Source: Brevibacillus massiliensis
Lineage (GTDB): Bacteria > Bacillota > Bacilli > Brevibacillales > Brevibacillaceae
DNA: 64,000 nt
Assembly (NCBI RefSeq): GCF_000311785.1
Contig: NZ_HE978539.1
Coordinates: 154,268-218,267 of the forward strand
Direction: 5' to 3'
Below, one piece after another: positions 36,037-45,043 of this stretch (its first letter is position 1; every line of letters begins with the position of its first letter). Below the pieces are notes generated by a model. It searched no databases. It had not been told where the DNA came from and was given only the letters and a program-made list of their open reading frames with translations. Position numbers and translations under genes: made by a program.

Positions 36037-36056
36037 CAACATCTTCTCCTTTCACA

Positions 36057-36195
36057 TGCCTACGAGGTTAGTTGTCGGGTTCGGGTCAAGGAGGCTGCCC
36101 TACGCAATTGCGATTCACCCCAAATCGAAGGCCGCTTTTGACCCTCGATAAAAAAAGTCCCCCGCACTTCCTGTTTGGGAAGTTTCGGCGATAAC
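36057..36195 (-). ncRNA. c-di-AMP riboswitch (ydaO-yuaA type)
   Basis: Read on the minus strand, this leader contains the conserved blocks of the ydaO-yuaA aptamer in order: TCGCCGAAACTT, GCGGGGGAC, GGGGTGAATCGC, GTAGGG, GACCCGAACCCGACA and CTAACCTCGTAGGC. The ribosome site of the wall hydrolase gene begins about ten bases after the aptamer, so closing of the last stem could hide it. A TATAAT box (minus strand, 36240-36245) lies upstream. In Bacillus this riboswitch class represses wall hydrolase and osmolyte or potassium transport genes when c-di-AMP is high. Confidence 0.9.
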
Positions 36196-36344
36196 AATCC
36201 ATACGATAACATAGGTTCTTGTTTAAAATAAATGATAAAATTATAGTAGCAGTGTAAATTATTGTCCCTTGACAGTCAGGTTTTTTCTTCTTGTCTTTCC
36301 ATGGCGGACGTTTTTAAGCCAATGTATACAAGGGATGGAATCGT

Positions 36345-39672: not shown

Positions 39673-39699
39673 AAAAAGGGAGGGGACGAGGCCCCCTCC
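39673..39699 (-). terminator. Terminator of the TRAP transporter operon
   Basis: On the minus strand GGAGGGG pairs with CCCCTCC and is followed by CTTTTTGC, 37 bases after the dctM stop codon. Confidence 0.8.
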
Positions 39700-39735: not shown

Positions 39736-41013
39736 TTACTTGCCGGCTACCAGATTTGGCAGCAAGAGACTGACATCGTCCCAATAGGTGACCAGACCGA
39801 GGACGATCAGCAGGACCCCGATCATCGGGGCAAGCGGTCTGATCATCTGTGCCAAATTGACCTTGGCAATCGAAGATGTCACAAACAAGCAGACACCCAG
39901 CGGCGGGGTAATCATCCCGATCGTCAGGTTAACCGCCAGAATGATTCCAAAGTGGACGGGATCGACACCGACGGCCGTAACCAACGGCAGAAACAGCGGG
40001 GTGAAGATTGTCAATGCGCTGATCGTGTCGATAAACGTACCGGCAATCAACAGGACGATGTTGATCAACAGCAAGAGTACCCACGGTTCGTTGGATAAAG
40101 ACGAGACCATGCTGCCAAGCTGGGCAGGAATGTCGTGAAAGGCTAGCAGCCAGGTAAACAGCGTGGCGTTGCCGATAACGAACAGGATTGTTGCTGAACT
40201 AATGACGGTTTCAAGCAATACGTTCTTTATATCTTTCCATTTCAATTCACGATAGACGAATGCGCCGATGACGAAAGCGTACACCACGGCAATCACGCCG
40301 GATTCGGTTGCGGTAAAGATCCCTGTGCGAAAACCGCCGATGATAATCACTGGCAAAAGCAGCGCGAGAAAAGCATCTTTCAATCCCACCAGGAGTTCTT
40401 TGGCCGAGGCCATTTTTTCGCGCCCTCTGATATTGTTCTTTTTGCCGTAGAAATAAACGTAAAACATGAGCGCCAAGGCCATCAATAAACCAGGGATAAT
40501 CCCCGCCAGGAACAAATCGCCAATGGATACGCTGGCCATGACACCATACAGGATGAGCGGGATCGATGGCGGAATTACCGGGCCGATCGTCGACGCAGAA
40601 GCAACCAGTGACGCAGAGAAGCGGCGATCATATCCCTGTGCCACCATTGCCGGAATCAGAATGCCGCCGATTGCTGCGGCGTCAGCGATCGCCGAACCGG
40701 AGATCGCCGAGAAAAACGTGCATGCCAACACGGCTACCATCGCCAGTCCAGCCGGCAGATGGCCAACAAGCAAACTTGCAAAGGAGACCAGGCGTTTGGA
40801 AATGCCGCCCACTGTCATCAGTTCGCCAGCCAGTACGAACAGGGGGATGGCGATTAAGGAAAACGAGTCGACCCCGGAAAATGTTTTTTGGGCGACGACA
40901 ATCAAATCCGTGCCGCTGATTAAGAGACCAACCAATGAGGTGATGCCGATTCCGTAAGCAATGGGGATGCGAAGCAAAAAAAGTGCAAAGAGAAGTCCGA
41001 TCAGCCAAATCAC
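39736..41013 (-). CDS. dctM: TRAP transporter large permease (DctM family)
   Basis: This 425-residue, roughly 12-helix membrane protein is the sodium-coupled transport subunit of a TRAP system. It begins MIWLIGLLFALFLLRIPIAYGIGI and contains DctM hallmarks GSAIADAAAIGGILIPAMVAQGYD, PPSIPLILYGVMA and VNLTIGMITPPLGVCLF. The GTG start lies two bases after the dctQ stop, with GGGAGGTG inside the end of dctQ, so translation is coupled. Last gene of the leftward cluster. Confidence 0.92.
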   Translation of the reverse strand: MIWLIGLLFALFLLRIPIAYGIGITSLVGLLISGTDLIVVAQKTFSGVDSFSLIAIPLFVLAGELMTVGGISKRLVSFASLLVGHLPAGLAMVAVLACTFFSAISGSAIADAAAIGGILIPAMVAQGYDRRFSASLVASASTIGPVIPPSIPLILYGVMASVSIGDLFLAGIIPGLLMALALMFYVYFYGKKNNIRGREKMASAKELLVGLKDAFLALLLPVIIIGGFRTGIFTATESGVIAVVYAFVIGAFVYRELKWKDIKNVLLETVISSATILFVIGNATLFTWLLAFHDIPAQLGSMVSSLSNEPWVLLLLINIVLLIAGTFIDTISALTIFTPLFLPLVTAVGVDPVHFGIILAVNLTIGMITPPLGVCLFVTSSIAKVNLAQMIRPLAPMIGVLLIVLGLVTYWDDVSLLLPNLVAGK

Positions 41014-41014
41014 C

Positions 41015-41476
41015 CTAGTTCACCTCCCGGTTGCGAATTTCAGCAATCATGTTTTTCAACAGGTAATACAACATAATCAGACCGGAAATGGGGATGATCA
41101 TATACAGGTAGGAGAGGGAGAGCTCAAGCGTTGGTGTCGTTGCCAGCTTGGAGTTGACGGTGTGTTTTGCACCGTAGTAAATCAGGACTCCAACGAATGC
41201 GATACTGAGAACGTAGCCGATGCTGACGATCCATTTCCGCAGGTTGGCTGGTACAGCCCCCAGTACGTCTACTGTCAGATGACGCTGGTATTTTACTCCC
41301 AGTCCAGCCCCAAGAAAAACCATGTAGACAAAGGCGATGCGTGTTACTTCTTCGGTCCAGGGAGCAGGAAGTTTTATCACAAACCTGAACAGAACCTGTA
41401 AAAATACCGTAACAACAAGGGTAGACAGACAAAGACAGGTTAAGATCTCCAACCAATTTTTAGCCAGTCGCTTCAT
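41015..41476 (-). CDS. dctQ: TRAP transporter small permease (DctQ family)
   Basis: This 153-residue protein with four membrane segments is the small TRAP permease. The typical core is WTEEVTRIAFVYMVFLGAGLGVKYQRHLTVD. The ATG at 41476 has a GGAG ten bases upstream; the frame runs on to 41602 through the stem-loop repeat, which is evidently not coding. Confidence 0.88.
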   Translation of the reverse strand: MKRLAKNWLEILTCLCLSTLVVTVFLQVLFRFVIKLPAPWTEEVTRIAFVYMVFLGAGLGVKYQRHLTVDVLGAVPANLRKWIVSIGYVLSIAFVGVLIYYGAKHTVNSKLATTPTLELSLSYLYMIIPISGLIMLYYLLKNMIAEIRNREVN

Positions 41477-41516
41477 TGTGGACACGCTCCAGTCAAATAA
41501 TTTTCCCGCTCTTCCA

Positions 41517-41636
41517 TGTAAATAAGGACTGCCCGCGCAGCCCCTATTTACAGGATAAGAAAGGGGCCCTTGGGCCGGCTTCCTTATCCCGCATGAAAAC
41601 ATCGTCTGAAGAGGAACTCGACAACGCCGTGGAGAC
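41517..41636 (+). repeat. Intergenic stem-loop repeat, copy B, between dctP and dctQ
   Basis: Two tandem hairpins fill the gap between the binding-protein and small-permease genes: 41517-41552 (TGTAAATA/TATTTACA with an inner CTGC/GCAG) and 41553-41590 (GGATAAGAAAG paired with CTTCCTTATCC, inner GGCCC/GGGCC). The second shares ACAGGATAAGA and GCTTCCTTATCC-GCATGAAAA with the copy at 68-120. In the dct mRNA these stems may stabilise the dctP message or reduce read-through into dctQM. Confidence 0.7.
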
Positions 41637-41671
41637 TTTTAGCAAAGGTTATTCATGCTTGGCGTGCTGCA

Positions 41672-42706
41672 TTATTCAGCTGCGGCTTTGATTTGATCGA
41701 TCAGTTCCTGAGGTACTTTGTCAGCGAGTACTTTGGCTACGCCGCTCGTTGCTTCGGCGAATGCTGCCCGATCAGGCTCGGTTATGTTCACTCCGTGTTG
41801 TTTCAGTTCTTCGATGGATTGTGCTTCCTTGTCGGACAAAATTTTACGCTGTTCTTGTGCCGCTTTTTGGACTGCTTCCGCTACCCATTGTTTTTGCTCG
41901 TCATTCAGCGAGTTATAGGCTTTATTGCTCATGATGACAACAGCAGGTGTGTAGGTGTGAGCGGTCAGTGCCAGTTGTTTTTGCACCTCGTAAAACTTCA
42001 TTGACATGATCGTGGCAATCGGATTTTCTTGACCATCGACGGTTCCTTGCTCAAGTGCGCTGTAGAGCTCGTTAAATTCGACCGGTGTCGGGTTGGCGCC
42101 CAAGGATTTCATAAACTCTTGCCATACAGGGGCGGGTTGAACGCGTACTTTTAACCCCTTCATGTCGGCAGGAGTATTGATGGGAGTTGACTTTGTGGTC
42201 ATGTTGCGGAAGCCTACTTCCCAGAATCCGAGGGCTTTCATTCCCTTTTCGTCTGCTTTTTGCAGCAGGCTTTTGCCGATATCTCCGTCCAGCACTTTGT
42301 ATACGTGGTCGCTGTCTTTAAACAGGAACGGAATGCCAAATACATTCATCTCCGGAACAACGTTGGCAAACGAGCTTTCGGCAGCTTGGACGGACATATC
42401 GATGATTCCGTTCATTACCCCTTCAACTGCATCCTTTTCGTTGCCCAAGGTTGCGTTCGGATGAATATTTACCTTGATGGTGTTGTTGCTGAGCGACTCC
42501 AATTCCTTCTTGAATATTTCCGCCCCAATATGGTATTGATGGGTTTCCGATCCGGTATGGGCGAGCTTGATTTGAATGGTTTGAGCAGGCTGCTCGCCAG
42601 CTTGTCCGCCAGCCGGTTCTGATGAACCTCCGCCTGAACAACCTGCGAGTGCGGTCAAGACCAGAGTGGTGCTGAGAATCCCCGTTAAGAGTTTGAACTT
42701 TCGCAT
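41672..42706 (-). CDS. dctP: TRAP transporter substrate-binding lipoprotein (DctP family)
   Basis: This 344-residue solute receptor has a lipoprotein signal (lipobox LAGC, Cys near residue 23) and a Gly/Ser/Glu linker. The DctP fold is shown by IKLAHTGSETHQYHIGAEIFK, GFWEVGFRNMTTK, LKVRVQPAPVWQEFMKSLGANPTP and ELYSALEQGTVDGQENPIATI; the Arg in KVRVQPAP normally pairs with the substrate carboxylate. GGGGGAAG precedes the ATG. The ligand is an organic acid of unknown identity. Confidence 0.92.
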   Translation of the reverse strand: MRKFKLLTGILSTTLVLTALAGCSGGGSSEPAGGQAGEQPAQTIQIKLAHTGSETHQYHIGAEIFKKELESLSNNTIKVNIHPNATLGNEKDAVEGVMNGIIDMSVQAAESSFANVVPEMNVFGIPFLFKDSDHVYKVLDGDIGKSLLQKADEKGMKALGFWEVGFRNMTTKSTPINTPADMKGLKVRVQPAPVWQEFMKSLGANPTPVEFNELYSALEQGTVDGQENPIATIMSMKFYEVQKQLALTAHTYTPAVVIMSNKAYNSLNDEQKQWVAEAVQKAAQEQRKILSDKEAQSIEELKQHGVNITEPDRAAFAEATSGVAKVLADKVPQELIDQIKAAAE

Positions 42707-42780
42707 TGCTATACTTCCCCCTTATGTAGACAATTTGTATATGATGATTTTGTTTGTTTATTTCGGTCGGGCTCTGCTGT

Positions 42781-43569
42781 TTACACCCCGTAAAGATCAA
42801 GTCGCTGATCGTCAAATACAGGGATTTTTTTGCGAATTTCGTCTACTTTGCCTAAATCGATCTCAATATGGCAGATTTGCTCACGGTCGTCTGCAGACAG
42901 CAGGATTTCTCCCCACGGGTCGATCACCATAGAGCTTCCCGGGAAGGCAGTGCCCCGGCTTTCCCCGCAGCGGTTGACGGCAATCATGTAGGCTTGATTT
43001 TCAATCGCCCGGGCAGTAAGCAAGGTTCTCCAGTGATCGACGCGAGCTGTCGGCCATTGGGCCACGTTGATCAGAATTTTGGCACCTTCCTTGACTAGTC
43101 TGCGGGACAGCTGCGGGAAGCGCAGATCATAGCAGATCATGGCGCCGAAAGTAGTGCCTTTACAGTCAAACAAGGCAAATGAGCTGCCGGCTTTTAAGTA
43201 TTGATCTTCATCCATTAGGCGGAACAGGTGCATTTTGTCGTAGCGCAGCACCTCTTTGCCCGCATCATCAAAGAGCAGCATGGTATTGGTGATGTCGCCG
43301 CTTGCGGTGTCACGGTAGAGCACGCTGCCAGCTAACACCATCACCCGGTTTTCCTTCGCAAAGGAAGAAAACATTTCCCTGGTTCGTTGGCCGTCGGCAT
43401 CGGCAATCTGCTCCGCTTTTTCCAGGGCGTACCCGGTGTTCCACATCTCCGGCAGAATAATCAGTTCCGGCTGTCCCGGCATCGCCTTCTCCATGAGGCG
43501 GCCAGCGTGCTCATAGTTGTAGTCAGGTTCGCCAATTTGCAGATCCATTTGGATTAAGGCAATCTTCAT
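42781..43569 (-). CDS. Carbon-nitrogen hydrolase (nitrilase superfamily)
   Basis: This 262-residue amidase has the Glu-Lys-Cys triad of the family: E41 in ILPEMW, K112 in YDKMHLF and C146 in MICYDLRFP. It resembles the omega-amidase/MtnU group, which hydrolyses 2-oxo acid amides, but its context here (TRAP transporter, DUF2848) suggests an amide or N-carbamoyl intermediate of the imported acid. The ATG at 43569 is eight bases after GGAGG and two after the stop of the upstream gene; an ATG at 43575 is too close to the ribosome site. Confidence 0.85.
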   Translation of the reverse strand: MKIALIQMDLQIGEPDYNYEHAGRLMEKAMPGQPELIILPEMWNTGYALEKAEQIADADGQRTREMFSSFAKENRVMVLAGSVLYRDTASGDITNTMLLFDDAGKEVLRYDKMHLFRLMDEDQYLKAGSSFALFDCKGTTFGAMICYDLRFPQLSRRLVKEGAKILINVAQWPTARVDHWRTLLTARAIENQAYMIAVNRCGESRGTAFPGSSMVIDPWGEILLSADDREQICHIEIDLGKVDEIRKKIPVFDDQRLDLYGV

Positions 43570-43571
43570 CT

Positions 43572-44258
43572 TCATCCCTCCTGAATCACAACAGAGTAAG
43601 AGCTGCTTAGCGATCGAAGCAAGATCGGATCATACAGTTCCATTTCAAACTTGTCGCCATAAACAAAGCCTTCAAGCGTAGGTACCGTTCCGGAGAAAAT
43701 AACGGTGTCGGCAAGATCGTGATAGCCAAAACCGGCCAACTTTTCCAGGAGATCCTTAACAGGGAGGAGCGCAGTCAGGTTGTGGTCTTGATACAGTCGT
43801 CTCCCCGCTGCGTCCGTTACCCAACAGCGCAAGATCAGCTGATCCCAGTGCTGTTCCACGTCCTGCAATCGCCAGAAGGTGTTACTCAGCGGCTTGGGGC
43901 ATGTTTCCTTTGACTTTTGGATGTCTTCTTTTTCCAGATGGCGATCGGTGTGATCGCTTCCCACGGTAACCAACCACTCTGTCCCGTTGTGCATCAGTAC
44001 GTATTCCGCTTCGCCTGAGGTCTGTTTACCTGTTACCGTTATCACCTCCTCGAAGGTCAATGCGGTTACCGGATGAGGATAGATGGTCGGCACAGTCGGC
44101 GGGGGAGCGACGCCAATTTCTGCCAGCTCGTGGATGTGTTCCTGCACTTTTTCCTGATCCCGCCCCCCGTAGCCGACGACGTAAACGCTCTTAACCTGGC
44201 ACGTCTGTTCCTCCGTTCCTTTGTCCAAGTGATCGATCTTGATCCTGATGTTCATCAT
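43572..44258 (-). CDS. DUF2848 family protein
   Basis: This 228-residue protein matches DUF2848: an early VVGYGGRDQEKVQEHIHELAEIG, a Pro-rich PPPTVPTIYPHP segment and YVLMHNGTEWLVTVGSDHTDR. The layout recalls the fumarylacetoacetase-like fold, with the GSDHTDR acidic site, but the reaction is unknown. The start overlaps the gntR stop (ATGATGA) and its stop lies two bases before the hydrolase start, so all three genes are translated together. Confidence 0.78.
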   Translation of the reverse strand: MMNIRIKIDHLDKGTEEQTCQVKSVYVVGYGGRDQEKVQEHIHELAEIGVAPPPTVPTIYPHPVTALTFEEVITVTGKQTSGEAEYVLMHNGTEWLVTVGSDHTDRHLEKEDIQKSKETCPKPLSNTFWRLQDVEQHWDQLILRCWVTDAAGRRLYQDHNLTALLPVKDLLEKLAGFGYHDLADTVIFSGTVPTLEGFVYGDKFEMELYDPILLRSLSSSYSVVIQEG

Positions 44259-44923
44259 TGATGACCTCCCATTTGATCCAGATTGAACATGATCGCTACC
44301 CGGGTTTGATTTAAGTGATGGGCAATGGCCTGCTTTGCTTCCGCCAGATCTCGTTTTTTCACTGCATTCAGGATCCTCGCGTGTTCCTGGAGGGTCTGCT
44401 CGTTTCGGCCAGGAAGATTGAGCGCCTGTACGCCAAACCAGCGCATTTGATCGCTAATCGTTTGCATCAGGGAGAGCACGCGGCGATTTCCGCACAATTC
44501 TGCGAAGTAGTTGTGAAAGTCTTTATCTATCGAGATAAATGTCTTGTGATCCGCAATATGCTCAGATTGCTGAAGGTAAACCTTTTCTGCGAGCGCGATT
44601 TGTTCGTCGGTGATCTTCGGAATGATCAGCTCCATGATCAATCCTTCAATTGCCCAACGAAGCTGCAATACATCCTCTACGTCTTCTCGCAAAATATGGC
44701 TGACAAACGTTCCTTTGCGGGGGACAGATTTTACCCACCCCTCAATTTCCAAGAGTTGAATGGCCTCTCGGATCGGTGTTCGGCTGATGCCCAGGCTTTC
44801 GCTCAAATTTCGTTCGTACAGTGCTTCGCCAGGCAGGATGGCGTGATTAATGATGGCGTTTTTGATCTCTTCATAAGCCTGTTGTTTAAACAAACGCGGT
44901 TGATGAATCTTCCCAAGACGCAC
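44255..44923 (-). CDS. GntR-family regulator, FadR/FCD subfamily
   Basis: This 222-residue regulator has an N-terminal winged helix-turn-helix (about 10-75; YERNLSESLGISRTPIREAIQLLEIEGWV) and a C-terminal helical FCD ligand domain (about 85-215) with metal-binding-type residues in DKDFHNYFAELCGN and AIAHHLNQT. It heads the catabolic and TRAP operon, so it probably senses the substrate or an intermediate and controls its own operon. The GTG start at 44923 follows GGAGGGG. A perfect palindrome on the -10 box upstream is its likely operator. Confidence 0.9.
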   Translation of the reverse strand: MRLGKIHQPRLFKQQAYEEIKNAIINHAILPGEALYERNLSESLGISRTPIREAIQLLEIEGWVKSVPRKGTFVSHILREDVEDVLQLRWAIEGLIMELIIPKITDEQIALAEKVYLQQSEHIADHKTFISIDKDFHNYFAELCGNRRVLSLMQTISDQMRWFGVQALNLPGRNEQTLQEHARILNAVKKRDLAEAKQAIAHHLNQTRVAIMFNLDQMGGHQ

Positions 44924-44949: not shown

Positions 44950-44998
44950 GGTATGAGGTATGAGGTATGTGGCATTAGGTATAAGGCATGTGGCATGC
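44950..44998. repeat. Seven tandem heptamers in the gntR leader
   Basis: Seven consecutive 7-base units follow GGYATRW-like sequence (GGTATGA, GGTATGA, GGTATGT, GGCATTA, GGTATAA, GGCATGT, GGCATGC). They lie in the transcribed leader between the gntR promoter and its start codon. Confidence 0.75.
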
Positions 44999-45007
44999 CA
45001 GATGTAC

Positions 45008-45029
45008 TTTTTGCAGTATAATGCAAAAA
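45008..45029. promoter_or_regulatory. Palindromic operator of the gntR-DUF2848-TRAP operon
   Basis: TTTTTGCA and TGCAAAAA form a perfect 8-bp palindrome with a 6-base spacer that contains the minus-strand -10 box. The placement predicts simple autorepression by the adjacent GntR protein. Confidence 0.65.
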
Positions 45030-45043
45030 TTTAACGTAGTCAA
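45015..45043 (-). promoter_or_regulatory. Sigma-A-type promoter of the gntR operon
   Basis: On the minus strand TTGACT (45038-45043), a 17-base spacer and TATACT (45015-45020) form a near-consensus promoter. The remaining plus-strand side of this gap (45044-45300) shows no convincing gene; a 42-codon frame at about 45154-45282 lacks a well-spaced ribosome site. Confidence 0.8.

Follow-up and report, generated by a model that had tools for sequence, protein, structure and literature searches.

A DUF2848, amide hydrolase and TRAP transporter operon of Brevibacillus massiliensis with a proposed role in lactam or amide acid breakdown

Layout of the operon and its operator

The window analyzed here is a 64,000-nucleotide stretch of the Brevibacillus massiliensis genome (RefSeq assembly GCF_000311785.1, contig NZ_HE978539.1, positions 154,268 to 218,267 of the forward strand; unless a locus handle is given, coordinates are those of the window). 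Six of its genes, coding for a GntR/FCD regulator, a DUF2848 protein, a carbon-nitrogen (CN) hydrolase and the three parts of a TRAP transporter (dctP, dctQ and dctM), form a single minus-strand operon that has one promoter and is separated from scoAB by a terminator (Table 1). The same six tightly coupled genes had been joined in an earlier reading made from the letters alone (the sequence-only reading), and this is confirmed: gntR and the DUF2848 gene overlap by 4 bp, as do the DUF2848 and CN hydrolase genes, and the Pfam scores lie far above the cut-offs. A single base pair separates dctQ from dctM; the gaps are 74 bp between the CN hydrolase gene and dctP and 195 bp between dctP and dctQ. 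The placing of scoAB beyond a terminator was also correct, as a hairpin separates it from dctM. DctP, DctQ and DctM are all present and adjacent, as in a TRAP transporter of the DctP type. The open reading frame of dctQ begins at 41602, and a start at 41476 is more likely. The DUF2848 gene has one copy in the 5.06-Mb genome, and a scan for RNA families gave no match overlapping the operon.

Table 1. Features of the operon in the window.
Feature	Coordinates	Strand	Evidence or remark
Promoter-like site TTGACT-17-TATACT	45015..45043	minus	sigma-A-like, 10/12 consensus matches
Palindrome TTTTTGCATTATACTGCAAAAA	45008..45029	minus	over the -10 box
Operator palindrome ATCTGGCATGCCACAT (core TGGCATGCCA)	44988..45003	minus	conserved ahead of gntR orthologues
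Heptad-phased array of seven ATRCC half-sites, 7-bp steps	44950..44998	minus	first half-site inside the operator palindrome; between -10 box and gntR
gntR, GntR/FCD regulator	44255..44923	minus	PF00392 5e-19, PF07729 3.7e-27
DUF2848 gene, PF11010	43572..44258	minus	Pfam 3.7e-64, 216 bits vs gathering score 23.4
CN hydrolase gene (nitrilase superfamily), YafV/Nit-like	42781..43575	minus	PF00795 1.3e-51, 175.9 bits
dctP, TRAP solute receptor	41672..42706	minus	Pfam; Cys23 invariant, lipoprotein-like
dctQ, TRAP small permease subunit	41015..41476	minus	Pfam; start fits homologue lengths
dctM, TRAP large permease subunit	39736..41013	minus	Pfam 2.9e-122
Terminator-like intrinsic hairpin, between dctM and scoAB	39679..39699	minus	

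In its conserved form, the operator consists of TGGYATRCCA and, after it, further ATRCC half-sites that recur exactly every 7 bp; it lies between the -10 box and gntR. In the window, seven half-sites lie at offsets -73, -66, -59, -52, -45, -38 and -31; identical phasing with two to four half-sites is found in L019, L023, L028, L029, L037, L038, L041 and L099, the palindrome itself being degenerate in L028. With at most one mismatch, ATCTGGCATGCCACAT has one site in its own genome, where the longer operator repeat is likewise unique. At the same tolerance, the array pattern has 12 sites in 398 genomes of the class, compared with 1 for a reversed control. All exact array matches, as well as the match in genome G043, precede orthologous gntR and DUF2848 genes; one array match precedes a solitary orthologous gntR (L144/L145). 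The palindrome TTTTTGCATTATACTGCAAAAA was rejected as the operator, not being seen upstream of orthologues. Hence, of the one promoter and one palindromic operator of the sequence-only reading, the promoter stands; the operator has to be amended, as there are two palindromes and the conserved one carries the heptad array and does not lie over the -10 box.

The GntR/FCD protein is probably an autorepressor. It would repress its own promoter through the TGGCATGCCA operator and the heptad array, and would be released once the substrate or product builds up. The heptad-phased operator offers a simple, testable regulatory system.

Some further observations were made around these elements. The solitary gntR of L145 (11178-11885) is 54% identical to the window regulator and has the same operator pattern, with no DUF2848 operon behind it. 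A similar array pattern stands before an unrelated operon in L135, L136, L139 and L142. The dctP-dctQ gap (41477-41671) holds a G+C-rich stretch resembling an inverted repeat, which possibly curbs permease expression relative to dctP. Downstream of the operon region, a c-di-AMP riboswitch (RF00379, 80 bits) was found at 36041-36200 on the minus strand.

Conservation of the DUF2848 and amide hydrolase pair

DUF2848 occurs in 13 of 149 related genomes. Its neighbourhoods were compared in 80 named genomes taken from a scan of a collection, eight annotated plasmid neighbourhoods and the related genomes, by marker-protein search; the 80 collection loci are the most similar ones, biased to Paraburkholderia and Pseudomonas, and neighbours were labelled by tblastn with a single query per marker. 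The sequence-only reading had beforehand staked its case on conserved linkage, and linkage is what is found: in 87 of 100 loci, drawn from several phyla, DUF2848 has an amide hydrolase no more than 4 kb away, and the six-gene set recurs in several genera. The order gntR-DUF2848-CN hydrolase-dctPQM is kept in L019, L023, L028 and L026/L038, with protein identities of about 50-80%; in L027/L037, an MFS transporter takes the place of TRAP. The partner amide hydrolases belong to four unrelated families: nitrilase-type CN hydrolases, amidase-signature (AS) enzymes, isochorismatase-like proteins and the 5-oxoprolinase PxpABC. CN hydrolases neighbour DUF2848 in 42 cases, against about 2 expected by chance by a rough Poisson estimate made without regard to relatedness; the own genome has 14 CN hydrolase genes.

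Other neighbours come and go. An HpaB-type two-component flavin monooxygenase, a flavin-reductase-like protein and a cupin join the pair in Bacillota clade A (L016, L017, L020-L022 and L025) and in many Proteobacteria, and HpaB-type neighbours are annotated in L030 and L035. In other loci, xanthine-dehydrogenase (Xdh)-type subunits replace HpaB. On the DUF2848 tree, the exchange between CN hydrolase and AS amidase amounts to a single change, compared with ten for the presence of HpaB; hence, DUF2848 and the amide hydrolase are the stable core. This pair is constant, whereas transporters (TRAP, TAXI, MFS and ABC) and hydroxylases are interchangeable. The dedicated TRAP importer expected earlier is indeed present, but it is only one of several transporters that are swapped. 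Judging from the near-constant linkage, DUF2848 and the amide hydrolase very probably act on the same molecule. The suggestion that scoAB uses a ketoacid product did not survive: scoAB is near DUF2848 only here among 102 loci examined, with a terminator between, and was rejected as a pathway member.

The DUF2848 protein and its partner hydrolase

Single-sequence and profile searches of DUF2848 against Protein Data Bank (PDB) sequences gave no significant match; only the fold search revealed a kinship, with the fumarylacetoacetate hydrolase (FAH) superfamily, whose members have alpha-keto acids and enols as substrates. The AlphaFold model, for which 51 homologues were used, reached a predicted local distance difference test score (pLDDT) of 95.8. 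All 33 Foldseek matches at E < 1e-3 belong to the FAH superfamily, as do the first 49 rows of the structural alignment (VIA; Z from 20.5 to 13.1), and the FAH fold is predicted with high confidence. DUF2848 is a broad and uncharacterised family, and a search of a full-text literature collection found no paper naming it.

The DUF2848 motif SGEAE...SDHTDRxLE...SK maps onto the FAH motif E-x-E...D-x-T-x-R-x-x-Q...K, aided by a weak hhalign comparison with four FAH proteins of the own genome (E 0.069, low probability), used for placement only. H41, E44, E83, E85, D102, R106, E109 and K117 are invariant in the 51 DUF2848 sequences and are the predicted catalytic residues; by the motif and the weak hhalign, E83, E85 and D102 would form the metal triad and K117 would be the catalytic lysine. 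The spacing H41-x-x-E44 is that of the His30-Glu33 dyad of FAHD1, at positions where hhalign leaves a gap. In FAHD1, Gln109 is important for decarboxylation (PMC8398924); all 51 DUF2848 sequences have Glu (E109) at this position. Together, these features argue for a metal-dependent enzyme for an alpha-keto, alpha-hydroxy or enol acid, not for a FAHD1-like decarboxylase.

The same residues bear on a C4 or acylpyruvate route, in which an acid resembling 2-oxosuccinamate or maleamate would lose ammonia through the CN hydrolase, and the product would go to DUF2848 acting as a FAHD1-like oxaloacetate decarboxylase, acylpyruvase or tautomerase. FAHD1 is among the nearest structures within the shared fold, the dyad spacing agrees (PMC8398924), and omega-amidases, which hydrolyse 2-oxoglutaramate, also accept 2-oxosuccinamate (PMC5485471). 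The Glu in place of Gln109 speaks against this route, which also leaves the 5-oxoprolinase, D-glutamate cyclase, UbiD and ring-hydroxylase neighbours of DUF2848 unexplained, and it is considered rather unlikely.

The nearest models of the window CN hydrolase are of the YafV/Nit type, YafV being the nearest in NCBIfam. The motifs of the Glu-Lys-Cys triad that marks the nitrilase superfamily are conserved in 46-48 of 48 DUF2848-linked CN hydrolases. A distant similarity to N-carbamoyl hydrolases, together with hut-like histidine-degradation genes beside the cluster in L027/L037 (by eye), would suit a ureide or carbamoyl acid (e.g., hydantoin-5-propionate or N-carbamoyl acids), for which the CN hydrolase would serve as decarbamoylase. 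This is highly improbable: its best matches are amidases of the Nit/YafV type rather than carbamoylases, and the conserved set comes without a hydantoinase. Of the amide, carbamoyl or enol-type group that had been predicted for the acid, the amide type is supported.

Candidate substrates and related systems

Several neighbours of DUF2848 hint at the substrate. UbiX and a UbiD-family decarboxylase lie nearby in L025 and L018. The UbiD of L025 is closest to PA0254/HudA, a pyrrole-2-carboxylate decarboxylase (457 bits vs. 377 for Fdc1), and keeps the substrate-contacting Asn318; that of L018 matches the furan-type HmfF best (502 bits) but has Asn at the HmfF specificity His. Two 5-oxoproline enzymes recur: of 101 DUF2848 copies, 10 have D-glutamate cyclase in the vicinity and 4 have PxpABC; for example, D-glutamate cyclase directly follows dctM in L028, and L095 has the order PxpA-DUF2848-PxpB-PxpC. 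The core is found without an oxygenase in L041, L048 and L085 (Maledivibacter, Peptoniphilus and a Clostridia metagenome-assembled genome), which are clostridial anaerobes.

That the operon is an acid-uptake and breakdown module is well supported, and it is probably autoregulated. Its substrate may be a C5 lactam or amide acid (probability roughly 0.4); the candidate is 2-hydroxy-5-oxoproline, which is 2-oxoglutaramate in cyclic form. This compound is proposed because three lines converge on it: a ring acid of the pyrrole type, a lactam of the 5-oxoproline type and an obligatory step of amide hydrolysis. TRAP transporters import small carboxylates, and the one encoded here would bring in such an acid. 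DUF2848 would chelate the alpha-hydroxy or alpha-keto carboxylate of the lactam, open or hydrate the ring, and pass 2-oxoglutaramate in its open-chain form on to the CN hydrolase for release of ammonia and 2-oxoglutarate. Most 2-oxoglutaramate is locked as the lactam. This form has been little studied, and its fate is described as little explored (PMC6302742). The opening of the lactam by DUF2848 is a tentative assignment; equally doubtful is the wider proposal that DUF2848 is the missing opener of 2-hydroxy-5-oxoproline, or hydrates and opens 5-hydroxypyrrole-2-carboxylate to it.

Several points weigh against this proposal. The evidence on the substrate is indirect. In thirteen of the 100 loci, no amide hydrolase was recognised near DUF2848; four of these loci are near contig ends. 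FAH enzymes classically cleave C-C bonds, which the 2-oxoglutaramate route does not need. The UbiD signal is mixed, since the enzymes of L043 and L067 have His and the pyrrole-type Asn is thus present in two of four. The CN hydrolase scores 171.5 bits against YafV (PRK10438), below the equivalog cut-off of 249, and is also below the deaminated-glutathione-amidase cut-off; its omega-amidase activity is therefore presumed from YafV/Nit likeness. DctP is about 39% identical to its closest solved relatives, for which no ligand is named in the titles among the matches listed.

Pyrrole-2-carboxylate is broken down via 5-hydroxypyrrole-2-carboxylate to 2-oxoglutarate, according to older biochemistry. 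A search of the same full-text collection for 5-hydroxypyrrole-2-carboxylate found nothing. In relatives with an HpaB- or Xdh-type hydroxylase and UbiD, the DUF2848 pair would stand at the bottom of this pathway. The window operon encodes no ring hydroxylase and differs in this from the proposed pyrrole-2-carboxylate degradation operons of these relatives; it would take the lactam or amide ready-made. Import of pyrrole-2-carboxylate itself, with first hydroxylation by an unlinked Xdh-type enzyme, would agree with the HpaB or Xdh adjoining DUF2848 in many loci, with the pyrrole-type UbiD of L018 and L025, and with five Xdh molybdenum-subunit genes elsewhere in the own genome. However, neither the operon nor its direct orthologues have a hydroxylase, and anaerobes carry the same core without HpaB or Xdh, so that this import is unlikely. 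The three own-genome HpaB genes were rejected as the missing hydroxylase, being 30-34% identical to the pathway HpaB and set in other clusters. Since the anaerobic groups have the core without an oxygenase, the imported compound can probably be broken down without any step that depends on oxygen, and the favored reading is that the lactam or amide acid is imported directly.

A salvage operon for 5-oxoproline (pyroglutamate) or D-5-oxoproline, with DUF2848 as an accessory, would explain the D-glutamate cyclase and PxpABC neighbours, and pyroglutamate is bound by some DctP receptors (PMC11574862). The window operon lacks both enzymes, which are found in a separate Pxp-type cluster of the own genome, and the CN hydrolase would be superfluous; such a salvage is quite improbable.

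Three other own-genome loci deserve mention. L120 (8084-11000, contig C12) has two tandem HpaB-family genes, each about 34% identical to the pathway HpaB. L121 (2168-8853, C1) combines HpaB-type oxygenase, alpha/beta hydrolase, maleate-isomerase-like, flavin reductase, isochorismatase-like and aminopeptidase/NicX-like genes; by eye and from sequence only, it resembles a hydroxypyridine or nicotinate pathway. In L122 (9344-14050, C8), D-glutamate cyclase lies near PxpC and PxpB, apart from the DUF2848 operon.

The FAH placement and the pairing with amide hydrolases of changing ancestry make the anonymous DUF2848 a testable pathway step. If the 2-hydroxy-5-oxoproline proposal is true, the pair would be a widespread entry point at which lactam acids and N-heterocyclic acids are turned into 2-oxoglutarate, and hydroxylases and transporters would be added as needed; it would supply genes for pyrrole-2-carboxylate breakdown, as well as an enzyme for the little-explored lactam (PMC6302742).

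Compared with known systems, DUF2848 shares with the FAH superfamily (FAHD1, Cg1458, HpcE and fumarylpyruvate hydrolase) the whole-chain fold (Z ~19-20.5) and, invariantly, the E-x-E...D metal motif and the lysine; H41 and E44, with the spacing of the dyad, are invariant as well. It differs as a separate Pfam family without significant PDB sequence match, in the Glu for FAHD1 Gln109 and in its tie to amide hydrolases. Like the enzymes of the omega-amidase (Nit2/YafV/MtnU) route, the window CN hydrolase is a nitrilase-superfamily amidase with Glu-Lys-Cys motifs; unlike them, its gene is co-transcribed with those for an importer and an FAH-type enzyme instead of transaminase or methionine-salvage genes. 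DctP belongs to the same receptor family as the DctP proteins of Bordetella, some of which bind the lactam acid pyroglutamate (PMC11574862), although these are not among the closest structures listed for it. Finally, relatives of the operon carry a HudA-like UbiD as well as an oxygenase of the HpaB type together with a flavin reductase, which in type recall the two-component pyrrole-2-carboxylate monooxygenase of Rhodococcus (Becker 1997, as cited in PMC6165268) and HudA; the window operon has neither.

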